A DNA stretch of 64,000 nucleotides from Blastocatellia bacterium (GTDB lineage Bacteria; Acidobacteriota; Blastocatellia; Pyrinomonadales; Pyrinomonadaceae): assembly GCA_003168335.1 (NCBI GenBank), contig PMSM01000010.1:458001-522000 (forward strand), written 5' to 3'. Shown piece after piece: positions 41,194 through 56,434 of the stretch. Both the position numbers and the translations under genes were made by a program. The notes below the pieces were generated by a model. It was not told the origin of the DNA, did no database searches, and was given only the letters and a program-made list of their open reading frames with translations. The first letter of the stretch is position 1. Each line of letters opens with the position of its first letter.

Positions 41194-41772
41194 CTACAAC
41201 GTGAGTCCAGCTAGCGCGGGATACCTTTCGATCATGTGACCGGGAATTACAATCTGCCATTCTTTGTGGCGTGATCTTTCTCTATGGATTTTTAAGGCTC
41301 TAGCAAATATATCGTTCGCTTCTTTCGCAGTAATGCCATTTACCGAGCTTAATTGTTCGATTGCCTGATTACCGCGTTGAGCAATTGATCCTTTACCCGT
41401 GGCGCTCTGTCGAAAACCTACCTCAAGCGCAGCGCCTGGGTGTAATACGAAATTACAGTCACGACATGCTAATGCGAAATCGCTAAGCGTGGCAGTATGG
41501 TTTTGATCGTCGTAGTTCCAAACCTCATGACAGATCATCCCTTTTCCATTGTCGTATTGCTTTGTGCAGTAATCGCAGATGCCAGAGACGGCGTCGATCA
41601 CTTCTTGGCGAATCGTACGCCAGGCTTTGCGCTTGGTGCCGAGCACTTGGCACACACTTCGGTTCCATAGTGGGACGGGAACCATAGCAGGCTTCAAGAT
41701 TCGTTTTGGTTCTAGCATGCGCGCATGATGGCGTACGGGATTCAGAGGTTCTAGTGACGAGTAACGCGTCAT
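41194..41772 (-). CDS. HNH-like nuclease domain protein
   Basis: 192 residues from the ATG at 41772 (frame opens at a TTG, 41805; another Met at 41718 would give 175). The central region has CDYCTKQYDNGKGMICHEVWNYDD, followed by LACRDCNFVLHPG: paired CxxC motifs around His residues as in zinc-containing HNH endonucleases. The C-terminal part (GITAKEANDIFARALKIHRERS, WQIVIPG) is helical. Such proteins are common in mobile and defence regions. No neighbouring methylase is seen. The substrate is unknown. Confidence 0.65.
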   Translation of the reverse strand: MTRYSSLEPLNPVRHHARMLEPKRILKPAMVPVPLWNRSVCQVLGTKRKAWRTIRQEVIDAVSGICDYCTKQYDNGKGMICHEVWNYDDQNHTATLSDFALACRDCNFVLHPGAALEVGFRQSATGKGSIAQRGNQAIEQLSSVNGITAKEANDIFARALKIHRERSRHKEWQIVIPGHMIERYPALAGLTL

Positions 41773-42319
41773 TCTGGATCGCCCAATAGGTTGAGGTTCC
41801 AGCAACCATCCCGCGCGGTCTATCTCGCCTTTCAGGAAACGTTCGCCATTGCCCGAAGGTTATCAGCCGTGCCAGCGACCCGCAAGCACAATCACACAGC
41901 TCTTGAAGCGGGCTCTCTGTTTTCGGAACACCCAAAGGGCAAAAGAAAACAGGGCGCAGTGAGTTAGAAGCCTGTTTAGTGCATTGTAGAAAGCAGATGA
42001 AATTTGATTTATGGTAGCCGTTTGAATAGCATGGCACCGCGCCCGCCTCCCCGGTGGGCGAAGTGGTCGCGTGGGGTGAGGACACGTGGCCTGAGGGCGG
42101 GGCTTGTGGGAGGGCCTCGCCCGCTTTCTTTTGTGGTTTGGGGCGTGAAGAGAGATGGGCAGGTCCCGGGCCTCAGGGTCCCACGCTTTCGCGCTGCTGC
42201 CTTACGAAAGGGCTTCATCTATGAAGGTTCTTCTTATTGGCGAGCTGAGGTTGTTCCCACGCATACCTGCCAAATTCTTGTTAACCACTTTTTTCTTTTG
42301 GTTTTAAGTGAGGCTAGTC
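41773..42319. other. Gene-free 550-base stretch with a strand-biased GC-rich core
   Basis: No frame has coding character. Between about 42045 and 42200 the plus strand is strongly G-rich (repeated GTGGGG, GAGGGCGGGG, GGGAGGG). CCTGAGG at 42090-42096 can pair with CCTCAGG at 42171-42177, and nested complementarity exists inside. It could be a structured RNA or a decayed transposon end; neither is shown. No terminator is obvious before the DUF3800 gene. Confidence 0.35.
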
Positions 42320-43099
42320 ATGAATAGTTCCTATGTTGCATATGTCGATGAAGCGGGAGACGACGGTTGTACTCCGAAGAGTTCAGAGTGGTTGATTCTT
42401 TCGGCGGTTGTAACTAATAAGGCAACCGATGCTCGTACGTTGAAGACTGTTTTTGACTCGAGCCGGTTAGTGCTCAACAAGTCTGAGCAGAAACCATTTC
42501 ACTTTCGCAGGCTTCCTCATCATCAAAGAGTTCCTTATGTTTCGCAAATAGCGGGAGCGCCTGTGGCGGCGATTACCGTATTGGTAAACAAACAGTCAGT
42601 CTGGAGGGATAGATTTAGCGATCGGCACAGGTTATATCACTATGCGATTCGTTTACTGGTGGAACGAATCTCCTGGTTGTCTCGTGACCGAAATGGCACG
42701 ATTAGCGAACTGATGCTTTCGACTCGGCGTGGCTTGTCTTCCTCGGCGGTTCGGGAGTACCTGGATTCGCTACTCGCAAATCCTAAACCAAGCAGTGCGC
42801 GTGCGAATGAAGTCAGGATAGCTCCCGGTACAATGGAACGTACGAAAGTATTTACTTTCGAAAACGAAGAGATGTTGGGTCTACAAATGGCGGATGCGGT
42901 AGCGTCGGGATTCTACAATGCAGTTGAGGCAAGATATGGATTTATTGAAGCTCGGTACGCCCGGATGCTGAAGCCGATCGTCTATAACTATCGCGGGCGG
43001 TACCGAAGCTATGGGCTAAAGTTTTTTCCGCCGCCGGCAGAGAAGTTAATTGAAACAGACCCACGTCTAAAGTGGGTAGTTGAAGACTACTCGAAGTAA
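42320..43099 (+). CDS. DUF3800 domain-containing protein
   Basis: 259 residues from the ATG at 42320, preceded by GTGAGG at a proper distance (a GTG at 42308 is in frame). DUF3800 signatures: N-terminal YVDEAGDDG, a long alpha/beta middle with FHFRRLPHHQRVPYV, and the C-terminal MLGLQMADAVASGFYNAVE. The fold is related to RNase H-like enzymes and family members often sit in prophages and defence islands; activity is unproven. Codons here are richer in A/T than in genes left of 41 kb. It is a single gene, 45 bases from the convergent XRE regulator gene. Confidence 0.8.
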   Translation: MNSSYVAYVDEAGDDGCTPKSSEWLILSAVVTNKATDARTLKTVFDSSRLVLNKSEQKPFHFRRLPHHQRVPYVSQIAGAPVAAITVLVNKQSVWRDRFSDRHRLYHYAIRLLVERISWLSRDRNGTISELMLSTRRGLSSSAVREYLDSLLANPKPSSARANEVRIAPGTMERTKVFTFENEEMLGLQMADAVASGFYNAVEARYGFIEARYARMLKPIVYNYRGRYRSYGLKFFPPPAEKLIETDPRLKWVVEDYSK

Positions 43100-43144
43100 G
43101 CAACCTCTGTGTTGAAGCGGTTTTGGAATGTTAAGTTACGAAGA

Positions 43145-43396
43145 TTAGGTTTTCGGCAGCTTCAGATCGTCGTCAATAAGCACGTCAGTAGAGATTCCCG
43201 CGAGGCGAGCGTATTTGAGCAGAATCGGCAAGGGTGGCTCTCTCGTCCCCAACTCATATTGCGACACCGCAGAATAATCGACTTTCAACCCTAAGCTCCT
43301 ACTCATTTCCGTCTGAGACATCCCCAGGATCTCAACGCGAATTGCCCGTAGTTTCTTGCCCAGGTACTTAGGCTTCGGCCGGGCTTTCGATCCCAT
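43145..43396 (-). CDS. XRE-family helix-turn-helix regulator
   Basis: 83 residues. A HTH_3 domain covers about residues 12-72: LGKKLRAIRVEILGMSQTEMSRSLGLKVDYSAVSQYELGTREPPLPILLKYARLAGIS. Good AGGAGG ribosome site 9 bases before the ATG. The protein is all DNA-binding domain with a short tail (VLIDDDLKLPKT). Two palindromes upstream (43443-43503) are candidate operator sites. It may regulate itself and the divergent gene at 43676. Confidence 0.85.
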   Translation of the reverse strand: MGSKARPKPKYLGKKLRAIRVEILGMSQTEMSRSLGLKVDYSAVSQYELGTREPPLPILLKYARLAGISTDVLIDDDLKLPKT

Positions 43397-43442
43397 CAGT
43401 TATTACCTCCTGATGGATGAGAAAGCTTGTTGTTGTGTCTAT

Positions 43443-43503
43443 GGGCAATTGCCCTTAGAATGGGCGACGCGGAAGAGGAAGCCCGGACAATACACGCTGT
43501 CCG
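43443..43503. promoter_or_regulatory. Two palindromes upstream of the XRE regulator
   Basis: A perfect palindrome GGGCAATTGCCC (43443-43454) and a second one CGGACA...TGTCCG (43484-43503, 8-base spacer) lie 47 and 88 bases upstream of the regulator start, between it and the divergent gene at 43676. They are plausible operators for the XRE protein. The functional link is inference. Confidence 0.4.
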
Positions 43504-43675
43504 AGCGAAGGTCATTACCTGGTGTGACCTCGCGCCTGATACATAGACCGGTTCGGTTCATAGAATATGGGAGTGTTGCGAAGTAAGCAATGCTCGCTTA
43601 AGCAACAACCGGCCATGAAACTAGCGAGGTATCACCTAGTCAGTCGCTTCCCGACAGAATCTCGGAGGTCGCCTC

Positions 43676-44344
43676 ATGCCTAAGGAAGATAAACCAAGAC
43701 GCTTCACGAATCTCGCAATAGCCGGCAGAGCCAGAGTCAAAGATCTGTTCGAATCGTTTCGACGCCATTTCAAGAGCGAGCGCGACTCAACGACTACATT
43801 TAGAAGTTTCCTTTGCGTTGCCGCGATTCTCGGAATACTTCCCCTAACGGTGCTTCAATCGCAAAAGCCTGTCGACGAATGCCAGGATGTTCAAAAGCAC
43901 ATCAAGAAAGAGCAGGATCGCTTCAAAGGCACTACCACGGTCCGGCTCGATGAAATGTTACTGAGTGAGAAAGTCCTTCAAGGGGAAAAACTGACGCTTC
44001 AGATTGAAGTGACATTTAGCAGTGAGAAAGAAAGCAAGCCTAAGAATGTAAAACTGATATTCAAATCACAAGGCCCGCGTCTTCGGCTCTATCAAGGACA
44101 AGAGGCGATTTTTCTGGCCGATGGGAACAGAATTAGATCCATCACCGCGACAGACGACGTAGCAGATCAATTTGGCATGAGTACGCGGTTCGAAAAAAAG
44201 AATGTCGTTATCGCATACGAGGATTTGGTAAGGATTGCAAACGCTGAGAGCGTTGAAATGCAACTAGGTGCCGTAGAGATCAAGTTCGATCGGAAAGTTC
44301 TTAAGGCTCTACACGGTTTCATGTCATGCGGTTTCAAAACATGA
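43676..44344 (+). CDS. Membrane-anchored protein of unknown function
   Basis: 222 residues. Basic N-terminus (1-45), one membrane span about 48-65 (FLCVAAILGILPLTVLQS), then an exported domain with Cys (DECQDVQKHIKKEQDRFKGTTTVRLDE) and a beta-rich pattern (KLTLQIEVTFSSEKES; KNVKLIFKSQGPRLRLYQGQEAIFLADG). It resembles no family I can name. Divergent from the XRE regulator and followed after 20 bases by a lipoprotein gene, probably one operon. Confidence 0.65.
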   Translation: MPKEDKPRRFTNLAIAGRARVKDLFESFRRHFKSERDSTTTFRSFLCVAAILGILPLTVLQSQKPVDECQDVQKHIKKEQDRFKGTTTVRLDEMLLSEKVLQGEKLTLQIEVTFSSEKESKPKNVKLIFKSQGPRLRLYQGQEAIFLADGNRIRSITATDDVADQFGMSTRFEKKNVVIAYEDLVRIANAESVEMQLGAVEIKFDRKVLKALHGFMSCGFKT

Positions 44345-44364
44345 GAGATTAATAGGTTCACGAA

Positions 44365-44817
44365 ATGAACGCTGCTCTCGAGGAAAATCCTTCCACGCTC
44401 TTGCGAGTTATGGTCGTTGTTGCAGCTGTTACCGTGCTCGCATTGGCCGTTAGTTGTGGCTTTCGAAAGAAGCCCTCCAAGGTTGTCGAGGATCTAATTC
44501 GGACAACCGAGCGTGGGGAGATCGACCAGGCTGCGGGCTTTATGTCTCAGGGATTCGTTAGCCGCCGGGGTATCGACACAATCAAGGAAAGCTTTCGTGA
44601 GGCCGCGCTCTGGATAAGGAACGACGGCGGGGTTAAGGCCATCAAGGTCTTGAAGGATGATAGCGTCGGTGACGTAGCCGAGGTCACTGTACAAGTGACG
44701 CGAGGTGGTGGGGATTCGTCAGTCGTTTATTACAAGCTGATCTGGGAGAAGGGTGACTGGAAGATTGATGACGTAGCGAGTGATCCCACATCGCCTGCCC
44801 CTTCCGCTACCCCCTGA
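44365..44817 (+). CDS. Lipoprotein with NTF2-like (DUF4878-type) domain
   Basis: 150 residues. A membrane segment ends in a lipobox-like LAVSC, then FRKKPSKVVEDLIRTTERGEIDQAAGFMSQGFVS and a C-terminal beta sheet KAIKVLKDDSVGDVAEVTVQVTRGGG, YYKLIWEKGDWKIDDV. This layout (helices, then curved sheet ending with W-K-I) is that of DUF4878/NTF2-like lipoproteins. The C-terminus is Pro-rich. Its last 11 bases overlap the 3' end of the convergent IS1-like transposase gene, so an insertion may have trimmed or supplied the tail. Confidence 0.65.
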   Translation: MNAALEENPSTLLRVMVVVAAVTVLALAVSCGFRKKPSKVVEDLIRTTERGEIDQAAGFMSQGFVSRRGIDTIKESFREAALWIRNDGGVKAIKVLKDDSVGDVAEVTVQVTRGGGDSSVVYYKLIWEKGDWKIDDVASDPTSPAPSATP

Positions 44818-45763
44818 GTAAGTCTTTAATGTCCCAGATCGTGTCCGTGATTCCAGCGGCCATCGCGGGAGTACAACGAAGTGATGAGTGGATGCGGCAG
44901 AAGTTGTAATAGGCAAAATAGAGTGCGAGCGCAGATCTGAGATTCTCCCACTTCTTGCTGAAGGTAATAGTCAGACGGGTATAGCGTCGCATGGCAGTGC
45001 GAATGTTTAGGTTCTGGCGTTCGACGTGTGATGTGCAGATGCGTTCAGGATTCGGATTGCCCCACAGGGGGGTTGGTATCGCCTCCTTAATTCTGCTTGG
45101 CGAGTATCTTTGCTGGTCCTCGGGTGCGAGCGGAGTTTGATAAATCTTAACGAGCTGAGCGTAGCTGGAGCGAGTACCCAGGGCGTAGGCAATTGCGGCC
45201 GGATACGGAGGAAAACCGTCGGTCGTGATTTGAATTATGTTGGTTGTTCCATCAAGGGCATCGAAAACCTTCTCTACGAAACTGACCGTGTCGGTTTCTG
45301 TGCGTCTGCCGAGATGCCAGGTGAGAAGTAACTTTGTGTCGCGTTCAAAGGCGGTGAAGCAATAGGCATCGCCGATTCGATCATTATGTAAGTTTCGTCG
45401 AGTTTTTTGTTTTTCTTTCATGAAGCAGAAGGTCCAGATTTCATCGAACTGCAGATCATGACAAAGGACCTTGCGCATTCGGCGGTTCATGAGGTCCTCG
45501 CAGCGCTGGCCAGCGAAGTGGAGTAAAGACTGAATTGTATCCTTGTGGACATCGGTAACTCGCTGGAGTGAGCGAATGGAACTACCTTCAACCAGCCAAT
45601 TCAGTATGTTTAGCGCCTTCTTTTCCGATAGATACATATTGCCGAGTAGCTTTTCGCGATACTCCTGGAAGGTCTTAGAGCATTTGTTACAGCGGTAGCG
45701 CTGATTGCCCTTGCGGTCCTTTCCGAACTTCTTGGCTTTGATCTGACAGTTATGACACGTCAC
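44807..45763 (-). CDS. IS1-like family transposase
   Basis: About 318 residues from the GTG at 45763; the same frame is open to an ATG at 45982, but that extension crosses a hairpin and looks non-coding. N-terminal zinc ribbon (TCHNCQIKAKKFGKDRKGNQRYRCNKC), then a helix-turn-helix-like part (SIRSLQRVTDVHKDTIQSLL), and DDE catalytic residues in LQFDEIWTF, TTDGFPPY and HVERQNLNIR, followed by FYNFCRIH-like YYNFCRIHSSL. Single-frame IS1 relatives are found in several phyla. I find no convincing terminal inverted repeats; the stop lies inside the end of the neighbouring lipoprotein gene. The domain is intact, so activity is possible. Confidence 0.85.
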   Translation of the reverse strand: MTCHNCQIKAKKFGKDRKGNQRYRCNKCSKTFQEYREKLLGNMYLSEKKALNILNWLVEGSSIRSLQRVTDVHKDTIQSLLHFAGQRCEDLMNRRMRKVLCHDLQFDEIWTFCFMKEKQKTRRNLHNDRIGDAYCFTAFERDTKLLLTWHLGRRTETDTVSFVEKVFDALDGTTNIIQITTDGFPPYPAAIAYALGTRSSYAQLVKIYQTPLAPEDQQRYSPSRIKEAIPTPLWGNPNPERICTSHVERQNLNIRTAMRRYTRLTITFSKKWENLRSALALYFAYYNFCRIHSSLRCTPAMAAGITDTIWDIKDLLRG

Positions 45764-45933
45764 AGTGTGAGCCTTGCCTTTCGTACGCGAGGGGCTCACA
45801 ATGACTTTTGCAGAGATCGGATGCGAGCAATCGCGTCTGGTTTTTAAGGGCTCTGACAGTCGGGTCACACCAACTGTTGGAGCCTTTTCGTTTCTTGTTG
45901 CTATCCGCTTTATTTCTGGGGCAGGACAAAAGG

Positions 45934-45959
45934 GGGGAAGGCAGGGGCGCGCCTTCCCC
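45934..45959 (-). terminator. Hairpin terminator after the 46068-46577 gene
   Basis: On the minus strand: GGGGAAGGC-GCGCCCCT-GCCTTCCCC followed by CCTTTTGTCC. It is about 110 bases after the stop of the upstream minus-strand gene. The T-run is short, so efficiency is uncertain. It lies in the gene-free gap 45764-46067, where nothing else is seen. Confidence 0.4.
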
Positions 45960-46067
45960 TCCAGGTTTACGTTGGGGAACATGGTGGTGGCCCACGATTA
46001 TGAACACCGTAATTCGAGCCGTGGCGCATATGCGCGCCTCCTTTCCAATAACGAAGAAAATCAGGAG

Positions 46068-46577
46068 TCAATGTGAGCTTGCAGTTGCGGCTGACTGCGC
46101 GGACTTAACGAGTCGCAATGGCGTGATGGGGTTTTGCCCTGGGGTGGTGATGAAGAACTTCTTTCCTTCTTTTACGACCATACCTTTCTTCCGAAGTTTG
46201 CCGAGAATGGTGGTGAGATAGCTCCGATCGATCTCGGTGCCGTTGGATGACATTAAGCTCATGATTTCGTCGGCATCCAGGCCTGTCTCGCTATGTTCCT
46301 GGAGCAGCCTGATCACTACGTGACTTTTGCCTTCGACCACCTTTTGCGCGCGCTTACTCGGTGAGCTTAGTTCCTTTTTCAGCTCGGAAATTCTCTGATA
46401 GGCACGTTTGACGGCGGGATCGTCGAATCCGGTCTGAAGGTATCGTCGTGCAGCTTGAAATTCGGCTTCGATCTGTTTTTTGGTTTGATCGAGCTTCTTG
46501 TATTGCACAGCGAGTTCGACTATTTGGTGAACCAGAGCCTCGCAGCGCGACGCTATTTCTTGATAAATGCGATCCAT
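46068..46577 (-). CDS. Coiled-coil / winged-helix protein
   Basis: 169 residues, no membrane segment. First half is helical (VHQIVELAVQYKKLDQTKKQIEAEFQAARRYL, then AYQRISELKKELSS) with heptad character; the second half has a winged-helix pattern (VVIRLLQEHSETGLDADEIMSLMSSNGTEIDRSYLTTILGKLRKKGMVVKEGKKFFIT). It is likely a DNA-binding regulator or accessory protein. A GGGGG stretch precedes the ATG by about 9 bases. Divergent from the sigma-like module at 46759; it might control it. Confidence 0.65.
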   Translation of the reverse strand: MDRIYQEIASRCEALVHQIVELAVQYKKLDQTKKQIEAEFQAARRYLQTGFDDPAVKRAYQRISELKKELSSPSKRAQKVVEGKSHVVIRLLQEHSETGLDADEIMSLMSSNGTEIDRSYLTTILGKLRKKGMVVKEGKKFFITTPGQNPITPLRLVKSAQSAATASSH

Positions 46578-46758
46578 TTCACAAACCCCCTAGTCAATTG
46601 AGCCGGAACGATTTACGCGTTGTTGCGTATTTTCCTATTGCCCGTACTCGTGGCGGCTGGTAACTTCACAGCGCGCTTCATATACATAGGGTGGTTCTGC
46701 GAGCAAAAAGTACGAAGGTTTTTTCTTGAGGCGACAAAAGAGTTGATTTAGATGGGAT

Positions 46759-47310
46759 ATGAGCGACTCTCGCAACTTTGATCCGACGGACCCTGGTTTT
46801 TACAAGAGCCAGTTTGCTAAAAGATTGCGAGCCGTCGCTAATGAGTTATTCGAATGGAAGAATTACGGTGATTATTCTCCGGATGATTTAGTCAGTGATA
46901 CGCTTAGGCGGTGCGTTGAAGAGAATTGGTTGGAACGCAACGACATTAGGAACCCGAGAGCGTATACCGTCGGGGCGATGCGCCACATTTTTTATCACAA
47001 GTTGCCAGAGTTAAAGAGATTTGTTTCCGGGAAAGAAGTCGACTTGGCAACCATTGATTTCCCTGACAGATCGGACGATGCCCGAGAGCGCTTAGAAATA
47101 GAATCGATCGTAAAGGCGTTACAGGCATATTTTCCGGATGATAAGCGGATGCGCCTCTTCATTCGGCTTAAGTATGGCGAAGGCCTGAAGCGCCGGCAGA
47201 TTGCCGAGGAAATGGGAATAGAGCCTCGCGAGGTTACAGACTTTGATCGCAGGCGAAAATATCGCCTTCCGGATTCTTTAATATTGAAGTTGTTTGGGAA
47301 AGTGATGTGA
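46759..47310 (+). CDS. ECF-like sigma factor of the accessory island
   Basis: 183 residues. Region 2-like: YSPDDLVSDTLRRCVEENW, then NPRAYTVGAMRHIFYHKLPEL. Region 4-like: FPDDKRMRLFIRLKYGEGLKRRQIAEEMGIEPREVTDFDRRRKYRL. Similarity is moderate, so the assignment is to sigma-70 family, ECF type, without subgroup. It is the first gene of a tight group: its stop overlaps the next start (GTGA), and that gene in turn overlaps the protease gene. No anti-sigma with membrane span is present, unlike the 19406 operon. Confidence 0.75.
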   Translation: MSDSRNFDPTDPGFYKSQFAKRLRAVANELFEWKNYGDYSPDDLVSDTLRRCVEENWLERNDIRNPRAYTVGAMRHIFYHKLPELKRFVSGKEVDLATIDFPDRSDDARERLEIESIVKALQAYFPDDKRMRLFIRLKYGEGLKRRQIAEEMGIEPREVTDFDRRRKYRLPDSLILKLFGKVM

Positions 47311-47768
47311 TCGATCCAGATATGAAGGAGAAAGAAGAATCACTTACCGGGGCTGAGATAGCAAAATTGGCCCGCAGAATTTTCGGCCCGGAGGAAGAAT
47401 GGGACGACGCGGCGGCAGACTTTGTCTTGCGGCTGTACGGTATTAATCCCGGTGATCGGGATGATGAAATTGCTTACGTCATTAAATTGATAATGACGGT
47501 GATCGAAGGGCGAAAAGAGCAAGGGAAAGATATACCTCCGGCACTGTTGACGGTTTTGCAGAAGCTAACGGCTGAGAGAGATAGAGATCCTCGAATCAAA
47601 GAGGCGCAGACTGAAGTAGAAAAGGCTTTGCGAGCTGGTGCTGGCGCAGGTCCAAGAGTGGTTAGGAATCTGCGACGCAAGGAAAACCTTTCGAAAGAGG
47701 ATGAAGAGATCTTAAAGGACCTTGAGGCTAAGCTGCTTTCAACCGTAAAGAGCAAAGACAACAAATGA
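47307..47768 (+). CDS. Acidic helical protein with FGPEEEWDD motif, paralog 1
   Basis: 153 residues from GTG at 47307 (Met at 47322 is an alternative). The first 60 residues contain LTGAEIAKLARRIFGPEEEWDDAAADFVLRLYGINP, nearly repeated in the convergent gene at 48502-48780 (LTGAEIAQLARKLFGPEEEWDDTEADFVLRLFGINP). The rest is charged and helical (KEEQGKDIPPALLTVLQKL; RRKENLSKEDEEILKDLEAK). No known family is recognised. It sits between a sigma-like factor (4-base overlap) and an ImmA/IrrE protease (4-base overlap), so it could be a sigma regulator or a protease substrate. Confidence 0.7.
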   Translation: MIDPDMKEKEESLTGAEIAKLARRIFGPEEEWDDAAADFVLRLYGINPGDRDDEIAYVIKLIMTVIEGRKEQGKDIPPALLTVLQKLTAERDRDPRIKEAQTEVEKALRAGAGAGPRVVRNLRRKENLSKEDEEILKDLEAKLLSTVKSKDNK

Positions 47769-48508
47769 GTCTCAGCCCCGAATATTATGCTAAGGCGCTG
47801 CTGCGCACACTCAATATTCAGCAGCCGGTTTTATTAGAGGAGGTGGCTGGGAGGATCGGTCTGCAAATTGACGAGGTCAACTCGAGTGGATTCGATGGCG
47901 CGTTGCTACGGATAGCCGGGCGGCCTGACGGAATCATTGGCGTGCGAAAAACTATTCGTGAGAAGGAGCGTAAGAGATTCACGATCGCTCATGAGATCGG
48001 ACACTACGTGTTACCAGGCCATGATGCGGAGAATCCGTATTGTGACGCAGACGATCTTGTGGCGATTGGAAAAGAGGCGGAGAAGTTTGAACGAGCGGCA
48101 AACAAATTCGCGGCGGAGTTCTTGTTGCCTTCTCAGGCCGTGAGACGAATTGTGCGTAGATTAGGAATCTCTTTTGGGACAATCAGGTTTGTCGGCAAGC
48201 AGTTTGAAGTGTCGATTACGGCGGCCGCAGTTCAATGTGTCAAAGTAGCTGATAACGGTATGTTGGTGATGAGTAAGCGAGGAAGAGTTAAGTCGTTCGA
48301 GAAGGGCCAAAACTTTGGCGGTTATGTTGAAATGGGCGAGCTTCCGGCGGGTAGTTTGGCTGCGCAGTTAGGCAGCAAACAGCGCGAGAAAAGGGGCACG
48401 GTAAATGCGAGCGTTTGGCTTGGTCCCGGCTATGAGGAGTATCGAATGACGGAACACTCGATTTGGATGCCGAAGTATGAGCGCATTTTGACGTTACTCG
48501 TTCACTGA
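47765..48508 (+). CDS. ImmA/IrrE family metallo-endopeptidase
   Basis: 247 residues. Zinc-protease signature HEIGH (about 76-80) inside RFTIAHEIGHYVLPGH, with the third ligand region ERAANKFAAEFLLPSQAV about 35 residues on. A C-terminal extension from about 165 is beta-rich (GMLVMSKRGRVKSFEKG; NASVWLGPGYEEYRMTEHSIWM). ImmA/IrrE proteases cleave repressors or anti-factors, as in ICEBs1 and Deinococcus DNA-damage control. The ATG overlaps the stop of the upstream gene (ATGA). The usual XRE partner is replaced here by a sigma-like factor and the FGPEEEWDD protein. Its 3' end overlaps the convergent paralog gene by 7 bases. Confidence 0.88.
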   Translation: MSLSPEYYAKALLRTLNIQQPVLLEEVAGRIGLQIDEVNSSGFDGALLRIAGRPDGIIGVRKTIREKERKRFTIAHEIGHYVLPGHDAENPYCDADDLVAIGKEAEKFERAANKFAAEFLLPSQAVRRIVRRLGISFGTIRFVGKQFEVSITAAAVQCVKVADNGMLVMSKRGRVKSFEKGQNFGGYVEMGELPAGSLAAQLGSKQREKRGTVNASVWLGPGYEEYRMTEHSIWMPKYERILTLLVH

Positions 48509-48780
48509 TCTGTGCGTTTTTCCTCGAACTTTGCCAGTAGAGCGAGGAGAGATTGGGGGATTTCTTTGCTATTGTCGCGCATTCTTTGGATTACCCGTTT
48601 CAGAAGATTTATGGGGTAAGCGTTTTCATCTTCACTATCGGGGTTGATTCCAAAGAGCCTAAGTACGAAATCGGCCTCGGTGTCGTCCCATTCCTCTTCT
48701 GGACCAAATAGCTTTCTGGCAAGTTGCGCGATTTCTGCGCCGGTGAGCTGCTCCCGATCGTGAGACTCATTTTGTGACAT
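48502..48780 (-). CDS. FGPEEEWDD protein, paralog 2
   Basis: 92 residues. LTGAEIAQLARKLFGPEEEWDDTEADFVLRLFGINP aligns with the N-terminal part of the protein at 47307-47768; the C-terminus is shorter (NLLKRVIQRMRDNSKEIPQSLLALLAKF, similar to the IPPALLTVLQKL stretch of paralog 1). It is convergent with, and overlaps by 7 bases, the ImmA/IrrE gene. Two paralogs flanking the protease in opposite orientation suggest a functional set rather than chance. Function unknown. Confidence 0.7.
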   Translation of the reverse strand: MSQNESHDREQLTGAEIAQLARKLFGPEEEWDDTEADFVLRLFGINPDSEDENAYPINLLKRVIQRMRDNSKEIPQSLLALLAKFEEKRTDQ

Positions 48781-48924
48781 TGCAGACTCTAACCTCCGAT
48801 GAATTTACGTTTCGCTTGCCACCTTTTCCACTGGCCGGCCGAAGGTGACGACGTTAATTCGCCTCTCTGTTTTTCTGGGATCGCCGAGAGGCGGTGAGAT
48901 GCTGGTCAATGGAGTTAACACCTT

Positions 48925-50622
48925 ATGAGCAGTGACGATGGGATCTTGCGTCTAATCGAGGTCTATGTGCCTGAGGCGGATACGTGTGCGTTTCATCTTG
49001 ATGAATCAGGCGCGCGCATTCTTGATTTCGTTAACGACGCTTCAGAAGCGGAGTGTGATCGTTATCTAAATGCTGCGCTAGATGTGAAAGTCATTCCTTA
49101 TGGTGGTTTGCTGTACGTGTGCCATGCGTTTGAATCAGGCTCCTGGAACGACGCTCCAGTTAACTACTACTCTGATGAAGTGCTGTATCAGAACTTGATT
49201 GATTCTCAACCTAAGCAACTCGCCCTAACGATTGAGGTCATCGACCTTGCCAAGAAAAATCGCATCGCTTGTCGAGAAGCCCGGTTAAACGAGGAAATGA
49301 CGGCGACGCTTCTCCGTGTGTTGCAAGCTCAAAGGAAACGTGGACTCGATGAGCTAATGGCAATTGAAAGTTTGGGAGAGCCGGGAGAGATGCTTCATTT
49401 GATCTCGCAGCCAGGCATACCCGAGATTCAAGAGATCAAGGTCGACTCGGACGCGAGAACCGTCCAAGTGCGGGCTGACATGACTCCTCCTAGAGAGAAG
49501 AATGAGCCCCGAGCCCGTTGGATTCTCAGAAGTCTGGAGCGATTTCCAACCGTTGATTTCCGCCTTTATTCAGAGATGGCGGCTTTCACAATCGCAGTAG
49601 GAGAAAAACCCGAATGGCGACATTGCTTCTTTCCAGTGGGCGAGGTTATTGCTACTGAGCTGGAACGGACTGAAGACCAGTTGCGGCAACAGCTAATTGA
49701 ATTAGGGGCAGACCCTGATGAGAACGAAGATTATATTCAAGAAACAATTGACGGTTTTGGAGATCAGACGTACGCGTTTACAAATTTCGCGGTGGTGCTT
49801 AATTGGCATCCATCACAGGGCGTTTATAGGTTTGATCAAGGAATACTAAAGAACCTGTATCTCACAACGCTGCCGATACATCTGGATCCGACGATTCTCA
49901 CAAGACTGCCCGAGTATTGCGTCTATGTAGAGACACCCGGCCTCGCTACAGAAAACGGGGAGTGCCTGCATGGATTCTTCGCGATGATTGAAAGTCTAGC
50001 TTGGGATGATTCCGACAATTCCGAATATTTGAGCTATTGCTATCTTAGTTTGGATCATGGGCCTCCGGACCGTCTGGGCACGTCTCGGGTTCTTAGACTC
50101 AATCTAAGCAAACCAACGTTGAAGGATGCAGTCGAAACGTTGTCAGAGATAGATCCAGACAGCGGCCTTTGGCGGTCTCGGCTGGACCTACAGGCTTGGA
50201 TAACTCCATTACTTTCTCAACTCTTGTACATTTGCAGCACTGAACCTGAAATACGATCCGGTTCTGACCCACAACGGCAGCCGACACGTCCGATACCGAA
50301 GAAAACCAGGAAGGGATACAAGCTCTTTCCGCCGACGTCAGCTACGGTATGGGAATGTGGTTGGAGAACCGGTGCCGCAATTCGTTTCGACAGAAGTCGA
50401 CAAGAAGCGCTACAGAGCGCGATGGGTGAGGGCAGACGTTCTCCGAGGGGTCATGTGCGACGTGCTCATTGGCATGTATTCTACGCGGGGCCAAAAGATT
50501 CGCAGACACGCGAGATCAGATTGCATTGGCTTTCGATGATCAATGTGAACTTGAATATGAAGAGTGATCGGCCAACGGTTATTCGACCTGTCAAGCAAGA
50601 CTCGGTTATTAACCCAAGTTGA
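48925..50622 (+). CDS. Large protein with AcrVA2-like C-terminus
   Basis: 565 residues, no membrane span. The N-terminal 300 residues are alpha/beta without a motif I recognise. The end contains KLFPPTSATVWECGWRTGAAIRFDR, then PRGHVRRAHWHVFYAGPKDS and a closing LHWLSMINVNL...RPTVIRPV. From memory, this resembles the C-terminal region of proteins annotated as AcrVA2 family, an inhibitor of Cas12a first found in Moraxella. The viral version is much shorter, and the chromosomal relatives may do something else. GC content is low as elsewhere in the island. No CRISPR-Cas locus is in the window. Confidence 0.6.
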   Translation: MSSDDGILRLIEVYVPEADTCAFHLDESGARILDFVNDASEAECDRYLNAALDVKVIPYGGLLYVCHAFESGSWNDAPVNYYSDEVLYQNLIDSQPKQLALTIEVIDLAKKNRIACREARLNEEMTATLLRVLQAQRKRGLDELMAIESLGEPGEMLHLISQPGIPEIQEIKVDSDARTVQVRADMTPPREKNEPRARWILRSLERFPTVDFRLYSEMAAFTIAVGEKPEWRHCFFPVGEVIATELERTEDQLRQQLIELGADPDENEDYIQETIDGFGDQTYAFTNFAVVLNWHPSQGVYRFDQGILKNLYLTTLPIHLDPTILTRLPEYCVYVETPGLATENGECLHGFFAMIESLAWDDSDNSEYLSYCYLSLDHGPPDRLGTSRVLRLNLSKPTLKDAVETLSEIDPDSGLWRSRLDLQAWITPLLSQLLYICSTEPEIRSGSDPQRQPTRPIPKKTRKGYKLFPPTSATVWECGWRTGAAIRFDRSRQEALQSAMGEGRRSPRGHVRRAHWHVFYAGPKDSQTREIRLHWLSMINVNLNMKSDRPTVIRPVKQDSVINPS

Positions 50623-50782
50623 TAGGAAGTTTTTGATTTCTCACAAACGGAATGGTTACGGCTACAGGAAGAATTGGTTTTCCCGTGGTTCTTAGCGGTT
50701 GAGATCACCAAATTTCAGATATTATAGCTCTCATTTGTGAGATCTCTACTAGTTCGCCTCTCGCGTTCTCGATTGTTAACAC

Positions 50783-51253
50783 ATGCACCCCAAGAACGAA
50801 CAATATCCGGATGCGCAGTCCCAACCGTGGAACTACCGCTTTGAAATGGTAAACACTGCCGTGGACGTTCTCAGTCGGTTCTCCAATGAACTGAGCGGAT
50901 GCACGCCGCCTGACATTCCAGCGAATCTCCCTAACGTCAGTGGCTGGACTATGAGATTCGATGGCTTGGGCGAATATGGCAGTCATGTCCCAACATCTCG
51001 CCTGCAATCGCTCGCGAAACATCTCAATGCCCCGATCAAAGATATTCGGGCGTATATTGATCGTTGGGAACAGCTTGTGTCGAAGATCGACCCGCTTCTG
51101 CGAACGTTTGAAATTATGCCTGGCGACGAGGACACCCTTGATTGCGTGCGTGTTCTTCTGGATCGGACTATATATGCGCAAGAACTTGTTGTCGGTCAGT
51201 TGAATGATCGCCAAGAACGCGGCGAACAAATCGTTGCACCGCAGTGCGGATAG
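50783..51253 (+). CDS. Hypothetical protein
   Basis: 156 residues, soluble, helical (NTAVDVLSRFSNELSG; LQSLAKHLNAPIKDIRAYIDRWEQLVSKIDPLLRTFEIM). No family recognised. A long minus-strand frame overlaps it almost completely, but the plus frame has better amino-acid composition. There is no obvious ribosome site before the ATG. It lies 160 bases after the 565-residue gene, same strand. Confidence 0.45.
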   Translation: MHPKNEQYPDAQSQPWNYRFEMVNTAVDVLSRFSNELSGCTPPDIPANLPNVSGWTMRFDGLGEYGSHVPTSRLQSLAKHLNAPIKDIRAYIDRWEQLVSKIDPLLRTFEIMPGDEDTLDCVRVLLDRTIYAQELVVGQLNDRQERGEQIVAPQCG

Positions 51254-51363
51254 CCTTTTTCTCAAGTTGCTTCGTGCGGCCAGGGTTGAATGTAATCGCG
51301 CGCCCGGTCAACTTAGGGGGCGCTTGTGTGCTCCTATGCTTAAGTGTTTAGTCAGGAGATCCT

Positions 51364-51681
51364 ATGACGGTCAAACTAACCCTTGATGCGATTGAACGAA
51401 TGGTAAAGGCTTGCGAGAGTTCGTCGGAAACTAAGCGTCTTCAAATCTACGCAACTACCAAAGTTCTTACTGACGAACTGGCGGAGTACGCCGAATCTCA
51501 CGGTTTGCCACACGGCTACATTCGCGAAAAAATCGTCGACCTATTGTCGGCTTGTCGAGGACTCGCTTATCTTGAAGACCGAGGTAGTCGTGACGACAGT
51601 TGGTACACAGTGCAGGCGTACGGAGCGCTACAAAGCCTTTCATCGCCACTTTGCTTCAACGTCAGATCGTCCTCCGCTTAA
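51364..51681 (+). CDS. Hypothetical small protein
   Basis: 105 residues. Good AGGAG at 7 bases from the ATG. Helical N-terminus (LDAIERMVKACESSSETKRLQIYATTKVLTDELAEYAE), then HGYIREKIVDLLSACRGLAYL. The C-terminus is Ser-rich. No family recognised. Confidence 0.5.
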   Translation: MTVKLTLDAIERMVKACESSSETKRLQIYATTKVLTDELAEYAESHGLPHGYIREKIVDLLSACRGLAYLEDRGSRDDSWYTVQAYGALQSLSSPLCFNVRSSSA

Positions 51682-51741
51682 CTGCCGACGCGCGCCAACC
51701 AATTTCTTGGAGGCGAGCCGTGATAGCGTGTTCCGCACTCG

Positions 51742-52374
51742 GTGAACGAGCTTCAGATGGCAAATCCAAAGCTTACTTTAGTACGCCAGCAACCTGAGAC
51801 GTCCATCATTGCCCTTTCCTGGCTTGAACCTGACAAACCACCCCACGACAGTTTCTCCAAAATTGAGGACCCCTTCCTCTTTTTAAGGGTGATGGCAGTT
51901 CCAGAGGAAGGGGACCCACTGTCATTTGAGCTGCCTTGCCCAGAGCCTGCTACTCCCGTAATTATTCCAGTGCCGACGACCACTGCTCATGCATACGTCT
52001 TGTCGGTTGATCACACCACGCCTATCGAAAATGAAGCCGCATATCTGGTCACAATCAAGCGTCATGCTCGTTTTGGGATGAATTGGCGAGAGCTTGGGTT
52101 TTGTATAGGCGCTGAGATGGTTGGTTTCAATCAGTTCGTTGGGAGAGTTGAAGGTCGACTAGCGGGACTTTTACCTTGCGCGGAACTTGCAATGCTAAAC
52201 GTCCCTTCGCTAACGGAGTTTTATTCGCAAGAACTCGAAAAGGCACTGAAGCAGGATCCGAACCAAGAAGTGGACGAAAATGAATTGCGTCATTTCTTGG
52301 AAGACGGGCCGGCTGTTTGGATTCCTTGGTCGACTTTGAGGATGAAGCAAACGGGATTGGCCAACTTGCTTTGA
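51742..52374 (+). CDS. Hypothetical protein
   Basis: 210 residues if the GTG at 51742 is used, 205 from the ATG at 51757. Soluble, mixed alpha/beta, with Pro-rich parts (PLSFELPCPEPATPVIIPVP) and a helical end (LTEFYSQELEKALKQDPNQEVDENELRHFLED). Ends WSTLRMKQTGLANLL. No family recognised. Same strand as its neighbours, with A/T-rich codons. Confidence 0.5.
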   Translation: MNELQMANPKLTLVRQQPETSIIALSWLEPDKPPHDSFSKIEDPFLFLRVMAVPEEGDPLSFELPCPEPATPVIIPVPTTTAHAYVLSVDHTTPIENEAAYLVTIKRHARFGMNWRELGFCIGAEMVGFNQFVGRVEGRLAGLLPCAELAMLNVPSLTEFYSQELEKALKQDPNQEVDENELRHFLEDGPAVWIPWSTLRMKQTGLANLL

Positions 52375-52437
52375 AAAAGGCCTTGCCTGTGAAGTGCTTG
52401 GCTCAAAAAGCCACAATGTTGTGTTCCGATGATCATC

Positions 52438-52677
52438 TCACACACCGGAGGGCCAGTTTTCGGGCATAAGCTCTATTATCACGCGGTCAATGTATCGTTG
52501 GCCTGTATACGACTCCTGGTGTTGTCTAACAATCCTCAAGCGACCATTGCTTTCGTATTGTCTTAAGGACGAAATTGTCCCTTTGAAAGCCTCCAAGTCT
52601 TGCCCTCCACGAGGCCCAATTGTCATTTGACCACCGCCGCGCTGCGCGAACTGATCCAGCTCTTGTTCTAGTGTCAT
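52438..52677 (-). CDS. Hypothetical small protein
   Basis: 79 residues from the ATG at 52677, which has AGAGG at a good distance; the frame is open further up to 52755 only through a TTG. Sequence: MTLEQELDQFAQRGGGQMTI then charged helical part ending VIIELMPENWPSGV. It is the only minus-strand frame in this part of the island that has a ribosome site. Function unknown. Confidence 0.45.
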   Translation of the reverse strand: MTLEQELDQFAQRGGGQMTIGPRGGQDLEAFKGTISSLRQYESNGRLRIVRQHQESYTGQRYIDRVIIELMPENWPSGV

Positions 52678-52982
52678 GCCGCCTCTGCCAGGAAACGCCG
52701 GTTCAATTCCGAACTCGCGCGTTGATTGGATAACTAGACAGATATTGTGACACAAGACTTTGCAAAGTGCTTTGTCATAACATCCGCCTCGTGATGGGTC
52801 TTAAGTCGGTCCGCAGCTCATGGTGCTTTCCTTGTTGACCTTAAGTCACACCTCGTGAGTGTCATCTCTTAGTCTTTCGCTTAAGATCGCGATTTTCCCG
52901 CTGAAATCACCGAAAGGCAGACGCGCATAGCGTTTGCACAGCCGTGCTTGACGGGACCGCGTGAACCGCTCCCACACTACCG

Positions 52983-53327
52983 ATGTGTCGAAAACTGCCA
53001 AAAACCGCCACCCGAAAAACTAAACCTAAGTCAACTGATAAGGTAGTAGATATGCCGTTGAAAAATCCGGTAGCGCCAAAATTCGGTGAATGGCTACTTT
53101 ACTTAATGCCGCGTCAAGAGCGACTGGAGTTTTCTCGTGAGTTAACGAGCGACTATAGAGAAGCCATCCGAAAGTTTGGTCTATTTGGCGCAGATATGAC
53201 TTTCTATCTAAGGATTGGTATTTGTTTCTGGCCACGGATACGACGATCATTGGTTTACGGAGCCGGAATTACCGCGGGCATTAAGTTACTATTGTCATTT
53301 GTCAGCATAATCGCCAGGAATTCTTGA
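52983..53327 (+). CDS. Small protein with C-terminal membrane segment
   Basis: 114 residues (or 91 from the ATG at 53052, which has AAGG upstream). The stretch GEWLLYLMPRQERLEFSRELTSDYREAIRKFGLFGADMTFYLRIGICFWPRIRRSL resembles the small 'prefix'-type domain found in front of acidobacterial permeases and kinases (PxxxRxxLxxDLxxEYxE ... FG ... WPxxRR). The last 25 residues are a membrane span. Here the domain is free-standing. Function unknown. Confidence 0.5.
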   Translation: MCRKLPKTATRKTKPKSTDKVVDMPLKNPVAPKFGEWLLYLMPRQERLEFSRELTSDYREAIRKFGLFGADMTFYLRIGICFWPRIRRSLVYGAGITAGIKLLLSFVSIIARNS

Positions 53328-53378
53328 TACAGTACCCTGCCAATACGAACGATTTAAGATTGTAAGGGTTCGATAGTT

Positions 53379-53825
53379 ATGGGACTTGTCATGTCAATTC
53401 TTTCCTTGATTGTTTCAGCCTTAGCAGTTCTCATCTCCTATGTTCTCTTTCGCAGAGCGCAAATTGCGAACATCACGCCCGTGCTGGTGTTCACTCGTCG
53501 GTCGGAAGCTGTTTGGCAGATTGAAAATGTAGGACGAGGACCCGCGCTATCAGTTGCTGTGGGAGACAAGGAAGAAAGCGGAAAATGGAGATGGAGTGTC
53601 AGATGTTATCCAATTGCGGCCGGGGCTAAAATTCAAGTGCCCTGGCCGAGCCCTGGAGATGAACTAATGACTTCATACAAGGATATTAAAGGTAACGCCT
53701 ATTCAACCCTTTGCAGTATGAGTGAAAATGTTTTTTATGAAAAGAATATGTTTCCTGATTTGAAGCCAATAACAGATGAATATAGTTTGGCGGCAATTAT
53801 AGAGAGCTATAGGCGAATATTCTGA
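53379..53825 (+). CDS. Membrane-anchored hypothetical protein
   Basis: 148 residues. One N-terminal span (about 5-25, SILSLIVSALAVLISYVLF) followed by a cytoplasmic or exported beta-rich part (ITPVLVFTRRSEAVWQIENVGRGPALSVAVG). Low-GC codons. The spacing to the previous gene (51 bases) and to the next (177 bases) gives no strong operon signal. No family recognised. Confidence 0.5.
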   Translation: MGLVMSILSLIVSALAVLISYVLFRRAQIANITPVLVFTRRSEAVWQIENVGRGPALSVAVGDKEESGKWRWSVRCYPIAAGAKIQVPWPSPGDELMTSYKDIKGNAYSTLCSMSENVFYEKNMFPDLKPITDEYSLAAIIESYRRIF

Positions 53826-54002
53826 GTCGCGCGAACCGCGGAGTCGAATGATGGAAGCTGTCAAAAGGGGAAAAGAACTCACTTGGAGAATATAGGTTCA
53901 CAGATAGCGGCCGGCGCTACTATCTTGGCGCAGGTTATCAAAACATTATCTGAGTACTTCGGACAATGCAGTTCAGTCGCAGATTGAAGGACGAAAAAAA
54001 GC

Positions 54003-54983
54003 ATGAATTACGATATTGAACTTGAGCACCCAACGGGACGAATAGGATCATTAACGATTGTTAAGAATCCTGAACAACTTCAGGGAGCGCGGACTGTGTC
54101 CGGGTTTGAGATAAGTGTGCCGGCGACCATAACGCTTCGAGTTCGACCGAAACTTGAACCAATGCTGATCGTGCGTAACTTGCGCGGAAAAGTATTTGTC
54201 AAGATTGAAAATGGCTCGTTATTGAATGTTGGTTATCTTAGTAACGATGACAGGCACATCGCGGGTATTACAGACGGAGAAGGCTACGATCATTCGTCCG
54301 ATATCCGATTGGAATGGAGAGGGACCTTTGCTGATCTTGCTTATATCGAGAAGCTTAGGAACGGACAAACTCCAAAGCTGCAAATGTGGTTGGAGGGCGA
54401 GTGGTCTTTTCTGATCCGCAACGAAATCGATGTCACTGACGAACAATGGAATCAATTAGCCGACCCGCAGCGTCGCCGACTTAACGAATTGATATCTTTT
54501 AGAATTCCTACCGATACTCAGCGCTTGGTCAGCAGGCACGGATACATCGAAGTACCGTACCCTCGCGAGGTTTGGATTGATCTTGTGAGAAAACTTGGTG
54601 TCGGGGAGAATGTCCTTGTTGAGGTGCCTCTGCCTAAAAGCCCTCCTGATCCGTGGACTGGAGTCTGGAGTGCTCTGGTTAACGCCCGCAATGCGTTCGA
54701 GCAAGGAGGAAGCTCCGGCTGGCACGGAACAGTAAACTCGGTACGTTTAGCTCTGGAACGATGGCGCGCTATTGAGCAAGAGAATCCAGGTGCAGGATGG
54801 AAGGTGCCGAGTGTTCCTGATCGAGAATCCAGAACGAAAAAAGAACGCCTAGATGCCCTTCGCTGGTACTTGATGCAGACAGCGCATCTCGGTCCACATA
54901 GTGAGGCCGAAGAATGGTCGAGAGATGATGCCCTACTGATGCTTTCGACCTTGTCAGGGTTGTTAGCGGTGCGAAAACCATAG
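54003..54983 (+). CDS. Hypothetical protein of the island's right end
   Basis: 326 residues. The first 170 residues are beta-rich (IGSLTIVKNPEQLQGARTVSGFEISVPATITLRV; MLIVRNLRGKVFVKIENG; LQMWLEGEWSFLI), the last 130 are helical with a HEPN-like flavour (WSALVNARNAFEQGGSSGWHGTVNSVRLALERW; RLDALRWYLMQTAHLGPHSEAEEWSRDDALLMLSTLSGLLA). The helical-half comparison is tentative. It is the last low-GC gene; composition changes abruptly 20 bases later. Confidence 0.55.
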   Translation: MNYDIELEHPTGRIGSLTIVKNPEQLQGARTVSGFEISVPATITLRVRPKLEPMLIVRNLRGKVFVKIENGSLLNVGYLSNDDRHIAGITDGEGYDHSSDIRLEWRGTFADLAYIEKLRNGQTPKLQMWLEGEWSFLIRNEIDVTDEQWNQLADPQRRRLNELISFRIPTDTQRLVSRHGYIEVPYPREVWIDLVRKLGVGENVLVEVPLPKSPPDPWTGVWSALVNARNAFEQGGSSGWHGTVNSVRLALERWRAIEQENPGAGWKVPSVPDRESRTKKERLDALRWYLMQTAHLGPHSEAEEWSRDDALLMLSTLSGLLAVRKP

Positions 54984-55000: not shown

Positions 55001-56434
55001 GTGGCCTTCCGGTTAATGGCGTGCCATAGACTTGATTCAGCAACACAGATTTGGCCCACTACCGACGAGGACGCAGACCACCGCTTGCCGCTCGTGGAGC
55101 AGGCCGCCCCGGTCTTGTATGCGGCGGCGACTAGTTCAGCGGATGAGAGGGAGTCACTCGCCGAGAAAATCGAGCGCTGGCGGTATCAACGACTAAACAA
55201 GTACGGTCCCCGGCTCTCAGCGAACGAACGGCGGCTCATCGCCGTGCTCGATTTGGCTACCAGCAAGATTTTGCAAGGTCACCCGCGGCCACCCAAGGCG
55301 CCACGAGCTGCCATTCATTCGGGCGCGTGCTCCGAGAGCCAATTGGATAAAGGGACGCGATCGAGCGATTTTGCCGGGTTCGAGGCGGTTTTGGATCCTC
55401 ACGTCCCTCTGGAAGAGATCGCGCGGGAAGCAGCCGTGGTGACCTTGCGCCACTTTCGTTCTCTGCCATCCGAGGCGACGCAGCGAACGGCGCGGAATGA
55501 CGAACTTGCACCTCGTGGAGTAACGCCGCGGTGGCGGATGCGACTCTATGCGCCACTCTACTTGTCGAACTACTGCGTGAATCATTGTTTGTACTGCGCT
55601 TTTCGATTTCCCAACGAACTGGATCGCGTTCACTTGAGCGTGGACGAGGTGATCGCCGGGGCCGAAGTCCTTCGCACCCAGGGCCACCAGCATCTGTTGG
55701 TGGTGGCCGGCGATTTCCCGAAACTCACCTCTACTGATTACCTGGTGACGATCATTCGGGAGCTGGTGGCACGCGAATTCAGCGTCGCCGTGGAAGTGGC
55801 CGCGCAAGGCACCGTGTCCTACGCGAAGATGGTGCGAGCAGGTGCGCGCGGTGTCACGCTTTATCAGGAGACCTATCAGGAGGAACTCTACAGCCGGTTG
55901 CATCCGCGTGGTCCGAAGCTATGGTTCGACTGGCGATTGGAAGCGCCGGAGCGCGCCGCAGAGGCAGGCATGAAACGACTCGGACTGGGCATCCTCGTCG
56001 GCTTGGCTGATCCGGCGCTCGACATTCGCTGCCTGGTTCGACACGGCCGGTATCTGCTCGATCGATTTCCTGAAGTCAAGCTGGCGTTCAGCTTGCCCCG
56101 CATTCACGAAGCACCGGATGGCTTTAAGTCGGGTGTCGCCGTGGACGACGAAACATTTATCCGGCTGTACTGCGCCCTTCGGTTTTCATTTCCCACCGCA
56201 GACCTGGTCCTTTCGACGCGCGAACCACGTTCGCTGCGCGATCGGCTCGCCAGGATATGCATCACTCAAATGAGCGCGGGCAGTTGCACCGCACCGGGCG
56301 GCTATACCGGAATCGAAAACGGTTCACACACGCGGGAACAGTTCCCCGTCTTCGATCACCGAACCACTTCGCAAGTGGCCGACGCACTCGAGCGGTCGGG
56401 ATTTGATCTGAGCTGGGATGGCCACGACGATTAG
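55001..56434 (+). CDS. ThiH/HydG-type radical SAM enzyme
   Basis: 477 residues from GTG at 55001. The SAM-cluster motif is in YAPLYLSNYCVNHCLYCAF (C-x3-C-x2-C). Further family motifs are TLYQETYQEELYSRLHP, AFSLPRIHEAP and ITQMSAGSCTAPGGY. In thiamine synthesis ThiH splits tyrosine to dehydroglycine and p-cresol; HydG uses tyrosine to make CO and cyanide. The C-terminal cluster Cys set of HydG is not seen, so a ThiH-like tyrosine lyase is more likely. The first 110 residues (before FEAVLDPHVPLEEIA) have no clear counterpart. No thi or hyd gene is adjacent, so the pathway is open. It is the first GC-rich gene after the island. Confidence 0.8.
   Translation: MAFRLMACHRLDSATQIWPTTDEDADHRLPLVEQAAPVLYAAATSSADERESLAEKIERWRYQRLNKYGPRLSANERRLIAVLDLATSKILQGHPRPPKAPRAAIHSGACSESQLDKGTRSSDFAGFEAVLDPHVPLEEIAREAAVVTLRHFRSLPSEATQRTARNDELAPRGVTPRWRMRLYAPLYLSNYCVNHCLYCAFRFPNELDRVHLSVDEVIAGAEVLRTQGHQHLLVVAGDFPKLTSTDYLVTIIRELVAREFSVAVEVAAQGTVSYAKMVRAGARGVTLYQETYQEELYSRLHPRGPKLWFDWRLEAPERAAEAGMKRLGLGILVGLADPALDIRCLVRHGRYLLDRFPEVKLAFSLPRIHEAPDGFKSGVAVDDETFIRLYCALRFSFPTADLVLSTREPRSLRDRLARICITQMSAGSCTAPGGYTGIENGSHTREQFPVFDHRTTSQVADALERSGFDLSWDGHDD

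Follow-up and report, generated by a model that had tools for sequence, protein, structure and literature searches.

A divergent AcrVA2/FinQ-family protein with an added N-terminal region in a foreign-looking island of a Blastocatellia bacterium

The Locus and Its Low-GC Surroundings

The window analyzed here is a 64,000-nucleotide stretch of a Blastocatellia contig that extends at least to position 522,000; the assembly totals 5.16 Mb in 14 contigs and is 96.6% complete. At 48,925–50,622 on the plus strand it contains an ORF with an ATG start, encoding a 565-residue protein that consists of an orphan N-terminal region and a complete AcrVA2/FinQ-type domain. A GGAG found by eye 10 nt upstream of the ATG (48,911–48,914, plus strand) is a possible ribosome-binding site. 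The ORF is present in a single copy in its own genome, where two additional matches have E 0.18 and 0.59.

A sequence-only reading had placed the gene in a low-GC island, and this is borne out: GC is 0.495 in 41,000–54,500, its approximate limits, versus 0.57 for the remaining window. In 1-kb steps, GC is 0.44–0.53 inside the island, about 0.60 just outside it on both sides, and 0.52–0.57 again beyond 57.5 kb. The island encodes few recognizable genes besides an IS1-type transposase (44,807–45,982, minus strand; Pfam DDE_Tnp_IS1, E 1.2e-6, above cut-off). These include a DUF3800 protein, a sigma-70/ECF-like small protein (46,759–47,310, plus strand; NCBIfam TIGR02937, E 1.5e-7, below cut-off), and a CapP-like M78 metallopeptidase (47,765–48,508, plus strand; PADLOC capP, E 1.1e-48; Pfam Peptidase_M78), which is separated from the 565-residue ORF by an opposite-strand ORF (48,502–48,780, minus strand). 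None of the 18 ORFs scanned around the gene matches a conjugation family.

The segment at 46,759–48,780 encodes the sigma-like protein, a 153-residue orphan, the CapP-like peptidase and, in inverse orientation, a short relative paralogous to that orphan; the two ORFs preceding the CapP-like gene have no PADLOC match. Relatives of the ORF at 47,307, the CapP-like gene, the inverted ORF at 48,502, and the ORF at 44,365–44,817 recur in another genome of the same genus (G001, locus L202), over a 14-kb stretch that contains no AcrVA2-like match. Because the orphan, the CapP-like gene and the inverted ORF recur there without such a match, they are probably a module separate from the 48,925–50,622 gene, and this may be a regulatory module of CapP type in which the partner is a different one.

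The gene flanking the island on the left (39,940–40,881) is present in all seven genomes of the genus, including the one studied here, while the gene on the right (55,001–56,434) occurs only in the latter (one of seven). Near the left-flank gene in three genus genomes, the 29 other window proteins tried have no match, bar one weak alignment at 23% identity. The flank genes in these seven genomes gave no empty site and so define no insertion site.

A Complete AcrVA2-Type Domain

The 565-residue protein matches a single entry among the 177,635 distinct sequences of the PDB set at E ≤ 10 in a phmmer search, the anti-CRISPR protein AcrVA2 of Moraxella (7ci1; E 3.2e-14, query residues 293–543). It also matches phrog_6160, a PHROGs family of unknown function (E 3e-35), although this 322-position profile covers only residues 280–544 of the protein (profile positions 69–319). 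A profile built from 106 other members of the family scores 228 bits over residues 190–559. A second alignment, A2, comprises 107 rows (the query plus 106 of 121 non-redundant family ORFs); the profile made from it, query included, matches AcrVA2 at E 1.3e-55 over residues 3–319 of 323, and all 107 of its rows, the query among them, match phrog_6160.

The predicted structure agrees. AlphaFold2 with A2 gives block pLDDT values of 75–97 over residues 190–540, except for 65–68 at about 361–390. The top PDB match of the model by Foldseek is AcrVA2 (E 1.9e-16), and superposition on 7ci2 with VIA yields Z 26.4 with an rmsd of 3.3 over 300 of 313 residues, the next unrelated entry reaching Z 4.7; VIA matches to residues of about 77–150 and about 193–297 have Z 4.7 or less. 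The AcrVA2 fold occupies residues 193–542 (49,501–50,550, plus strand; VIA against 7ci2, and Foldseek). From the significant AcrVA2 match and the superposed fold, the protein holds an entire AcrVA2-type protein and not just a 120-residue motif.

The sequence-only reading had named AcrVA2 on the basis of C-terminal motif pieces (residues 479–490, GWRTGAAIRFDR; 508–523, RGHVRRAHWHVFYAGP; 533–543, LHWLSMINVNL), and the kinship it named is confirmed by the 7ci1 and phrog_6160 matches, the A2 profile, and the Foldseek and VIA results. Its division of the protein into a 120-residue AcrVA2-like C-terminus and 440 other residues is not upheld, as most of the 440 are AcrVA2-like too and the addition amounts to about 185 residues. 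In the NCBIfam search that it proposed, the protein has no match above curated cut-offs, yet neither do the Mcat5 protein, Enterobacter FinQ and the Y11 protein, so that no NCBIfam model fits the AcrVA2 near-twin or FinQ either. In Pfam, the query, Mcat5 and Enterobacter FinQ are likewise without a match above cut-off.

The protein of phage Mcat5 (L017) is a near-twin of AcrVA2 (426 bits to 7ci1, residues 1–321) and is 23.9% identical to the query. ORF43 of Shewanella phage vB_SbaS_Y11, annotated as AcrVA2, belongs to the same family and has the same core motif as the query; the available text of PMC10846135 describes modelling and docking of this protein but no cell assay. Relatives beyond Moraxella were noticed in 2020, when proteins of huge phages were found to cluster with AcrVA2 (PMC7162821, text available in part). 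The query is like AcrVA2 in its whole fold, its significant sequence match and its core motif, and differs from it in having about 185 extra N-terminal residues, in having no Cas12a or Cas1 match in its genome, in lying within low-GC DNA on a large contig and not in a recognized prophage, and in falling outside the AcrVA2 set of the family tree.

FinQ Belongs to the Same Family

The plasmid fertility inhibitor FinQ also matches 7ci1, both as the Enterobacter protein (L193, 361 residues; E 7.8e-16) and as the R621a protein (L194, annotated as 259 residues; E 2.5e-11). The 106-member profile scores 208 bits for Y11, 200 for R621a FinQ, 193 for Enterobacter FinQ, and 215 for Mcat5, the last value not being independent, as a 98%-identical sequence (L175) is inside the profile. 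The FinQ matches to 7ci1 and these scores place FinQ in the AcrVA2 family. The query resembles FinQ of the IncI plasmid R621a and of Enterobacter in the family profile and the core motif, with identities of 23.3% and 24.1% to the two proteins. Unlike the query, FinQ has no comparable N-terminal addition (the open frame in R621a is 364 residues), and it is an IncI plasmid protein, while the 18 ORFs around the query lack a conjugation family. Two E. coli plasmids (L015, L192) have a finQ gene close to blaCMY that is annotated as 260 residues, shorter than the 364-residue frame of R621a.

In the literature library searched, no paper names both "FinQ" and "anti-CRISPR", although an earlier statement may exist in the Marino preprint, and the available portions of two fertility-inhibition papers (PMC8744291, PMC5696584) do not mention AcrVA2. 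Within the searches made, the protein is of a known kind, with an apparently new two-part architecture and an apparently new link to FinQ.

Distribution and Gene Neighborhoods

At E ≤ 1, tblastn finds 715 plasmid records and 89 phage records, weak matches included. Among the 60 plasmid matches listed, 33 are annotated as FinQ (H26, H28, H30–H60), 31 of them with identical scores; FinQ excepted, the listed matches, 60 each from plasmids and phages, are mostly called "hypothetical protein", and the phage matches include the AcrVA2-annotated protein of Y11. Large Erwinia and Dickeya phages (235–275 kb) have weak family matches (H77–H120), most of those listed lying at about 190–208 kb; for one such phage, Special G, two records give the annotation "putative protein FinQ".

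When the query alone served as the probe, no match in genome or viral contigs was confirmed; alignment A1 instead yielded 79 genome loci (from the best 80 of 130 confirmed) and 80 viral loci (the best 80 of 107). All 159 loci drawn from these two best-80 sets contain a family ORF. The 121 non-redundant family ORFs have a median length of 348 residues, with 84 at 280–360. Members occur in plasmids, phages and genomes of ten phyla, judged by record names and with many metagenome assemblies among them.

Of 60 near genomes, including that of the query, five contain a family match at E ≤ 0.001: the query's own, G048, G040 (four matches), G042 (a partial match), and G021, whose match (E 1.6e-4) has three internal stops. 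Its occurrence is therefore sporadic, like that of cargo. The four matches in G040, a genome of the same class, are spread over three contigs (L005, L008, L009, L010).

A conserved partner gene was sought and rejected, since the commonest neighbor cluster occurs in only 12 of 121 loci, and none of the 58 neighbor clusters lies within 300 bases of the member in more than three of 121. By eye, the sequences of the commonest clusters look like integrases, ParA proteins and resolvases. On a Thioflavicoccus plasmid, the member (L014:4794–5834) lies one small gene past BREX genes (PglZ, brxL) and adjoins a gene with a reverse-transcriptase domain.

A Near-Invariant Core and Variable Docking-Pocket Positions

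Residues 510–517, HVRRAHWH (50,452–50,475, plus strand), correspond to a near-invariant HxRRxHWH core of the 107-row alignment, in which H510, R512, H515, W516 and H517 are found in 98–99% of rows and R513 in 93%. G522 and W535 are likewise present in 98–99%, and W294 and G350 are invariant. HxRRxHWH with G522 and W535, defined here from A2, serves as a family criterion. The query retains the HxRRxHWH core, G479, G483, R487, G522 and W535, and departs from strongly conserved residues at five positions, namely K228 (W in 91%), H295 (R in 93%), D321 (P in 99%), Y331 (W in 93%) and M538 (P in 93%).

Ten peptide-pocket residues of the Y11 protein have been named by docking in the accessible part of PMC10846135. 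At these positions, which derive from docking and not from the 7ci2 coordinates, and for which the Y11 numbering was verified on the sequence and the loop alignment is unsure, the query keeps two residues (G345, L429), differs at six, and has gaps at two. The positions are mostly variable across the family, and the AcrVA2 near-twin Mcat5 itself keeps only one of ten. We infer from this conservation pattern a common working core with a changing target surface.

A tree was computed by a quick method with SH-aLRT support only, leaving 54 of 116 inner branches open. One starred set contains Mcat5, Y11, L089 and L175, and a second contains three FinQ-type sequences; both are long-stemmed. ORF43 of Y11 clusters with Moraxella and Acinetobacter sequences; the query does not, and forms a long branch elsewhere, of unsure place and in no starred set. 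Because the method warned that long branches join in this tree, among them the query to L164 and FinQ to L146, we assign no sister group to the query.

The N-Terminal Region

The extra N-terminal region (codons 1–185; 48,925–49,479, plus strand) is coding by codon use, and its fold is not confidently predicted (pLDDT 38.7 alone, and 29–62 by blocks before residue 190 in the full model). Of 297 genomes drawn from the phylum, only the query's own gives a match at E ≤ 0.01, the other 296 having none; the plasmid search gave one chance-level match (E 4), and no viral contig was confirmed by a method sensitive to close relatives only. The idea that the region duplicates the family domain was rejected, and it matches none of 12 extended family ORFs.

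Extensions of at least 60 residues were tested for coding potential in 13 other members, 12 N-terminal and one C-terminal. Nine of the N-terminal extensions are not best in frame, that of L156 is tied, and those of L022 and L054 are best by 0.08 and 0.15, the L054 margin being at, not above, the threshold; the margin for the query is 0.27, in a similar, not identical, test. As most tested extensions fail the coding score, lists of extended members by ORF are overstated, and few other members seem to carry a genuine one. The sole pass among the 13 is the C-terminal extension of L026:7887–9563, from a Bacillota MAG, in which the family domain and a tyrosine recombinase domain (residues 363–540; Pfam Phage_integrase, E 3.9e-30) share one reading frame, either as a fusion or as read-through of two genes. 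The extension of L054:6242–7786, from a Burkholderiales MAG, comprises about 160 N-terminal residues, has a borderline coding score and does not match that of the query.

We conclude that the 48,925–50,622 ORF encodes a divergent AcrVA2/FinQ-family protein with an extended N-terminus and the family domain at residues of about 190–560, carried as cargo in a foreign-looking island.

Cas12a and CRISPR

As the sequence-only reading had suggested, the 96.6% complete genome was examined for Cas12a. TIGR04330 has no match in it at E ≤ 10, while other hosts of the element may hold Cas12a; Cas1 (PF01867) also has no match there, with control matches in nine of 14. TIGR04330 matches none of 75 carrier genomes (the query's own plus scans of 50 and 24), the 74 others being of unstated completeness and including many metagenome assemblies; as a control, it gave no match within the 50- and 24-genome scans and, elsewhere, one above cut-off in 149 genomes of a class (1403 bits). 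For these reasons we do not class the query as an anti-CRISPR protein. The suspicion of the earlier reading, a wider family around the motif that may have another role, is supported, as that family includes FinQ, and Cas12a is found in none of the 75 carrier genomes nor Cas1 in the query's own.

Possible Mode of Action

According to the available text of a review (PMC13131331), AcrVA2 causes translation-dependent decay of Cas12a mRNA via the N-terminal LSKT residues of Cas12a, in a manner that depends on the amino acids of the target, not on promoter or codons, and by degradation machinery that the review calls unknown. A meeting report, available in part (PMC12908700), adds that AcrVA2 also causes degradation of Cas9 and Cas12f transcripts when these enzymes are tagged. 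By analogy, the query may be a mobile-element silencer that combines AcrVA2-like nascent-peptide sensing with mRNA loss and has a target other than Cas12a, a reading to which we give about even odds (0.5). On this model it would act in trans, binding the N-terminal peptide of one particular protein during its synthesis, and this binding would lead to loss of the corresponding mRNA. The target gene would be one carried by a rival element or by the host itself. A variable surface, here perhaps together with the extra N-terminus, would select it, and the HxRRxHWH/G522/W535 core would do a common job such as contacting the ribosome, RNA or a host nuclease. The lack of a conserved partner gene fits such a stand-alone factor. 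Nascent-peptide-triggered mRNA loss could explain both the AcrVA2 and the FinQ phenotypes, since the multiple tra transcription ends reported for FinQ could also reflect mRNA loss. The five departures from family-conserved residues and the long branch of unsure place count against it, and at 23–24% identity to Mcat5 and FinQ the fold may be shared without the mechanism.

Alternatively, the protein could be a steric blocker that binds its target, from a rival element or the host, as a completed protein and leaves the mRNA unaffected. Canonical Acr proteins act by steric blockade, and AcrVA2 has been crystallized with an internal Cas12a peptide (residues 618–634) distinct from the N-terminal LSKT (both from the available text of PMC13131331). 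We regard this as unlikely, because in the sources as available AcrVA2 and FinQ, the two members with a reported phenotype, both lower mRNA, and because the core is much better conserved than the docking-pocket positions, a difference that would be needless for a pure binder.

Somewhat less probable still is a transcription termination factor acting on particular operons, as FinQ has been described: the available text of PMC8744291 cites 1989 work in which FinQ ends tra transcription at multiple sites, independently of Rho, and thus presents FinQ as a transcription terminator and not an mRNA-decay factor, which also weighs against silencing by mRNA decay. Residues 482–552 align in VIA with small chains of ribosome entries, one of these entries being an RNA polymerase–ribosome expressome, but the values (Z 2.2–2.8) are noise by VIA's own note, and we treat the likeness as such. 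The dependence of AcrVA2 on target amino acids rather than promoter or codons likewise argues against termination.

We give a similarly low probability to a true start at the in-frame ATG of M186 (49,480–49,482, plus strand), which would leave an ordinary 380-residue member joined to an upstream 185-codon remnant of a different gene. M186 lies near the beginning of six of ten aligned relatives, which start around query residues 183–201, and the region upstream is the one that is without relatives in the phylum, plasmid and viral searches. Codons 1–186 are nevertheless stop-free, with a coding-type position bias (GC 0.62/0.35/0.52 by codon position) and frame 0 the best of six by the host codon table (0.13 versus −0.15 for the runner-up); none of 5000 mononucleotide shuffles is stop-free, and the possible ribosome-binding site precedes the first ATG, with none seen by eye upstream of M186. 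Least probable is a functionless, decaying remnant of a past mobile element, to which the long branch, the five departures and the IS1-type transposase among few recognizable genes would be suited, as 565 codons are open with their codon bias kept and the conserved core residues are intact.

Implications for the Family

The placement of AcrVA2 and FinQ in one family suggests a common, testable mode of gene silencing. More tentatively, and with somewhat greater doubt than for the query itself, the two may be tips of a large mobile-element family that silences chosen genes via the nascent N-terminus and destroys their mRNA, with lineage-specific targets; the added module of the query would then serve target choice or recruitment of the decay machinery. 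If AcrVA2 and FinQ share a mechanism, the 1989 fertility-inhibition results and the recent anti-CRISPR results become one question, and it may be asked whether a nascent Tra peptide is sensed by FinQ. If this is true, a family whose listed members, apart from FinQ, are mostly annotated as "hypothetical protein" would be a set of sequence-specific gene silencers, and caution would be due before inferring, from any given homologue, a conflict with type V CRISPR.
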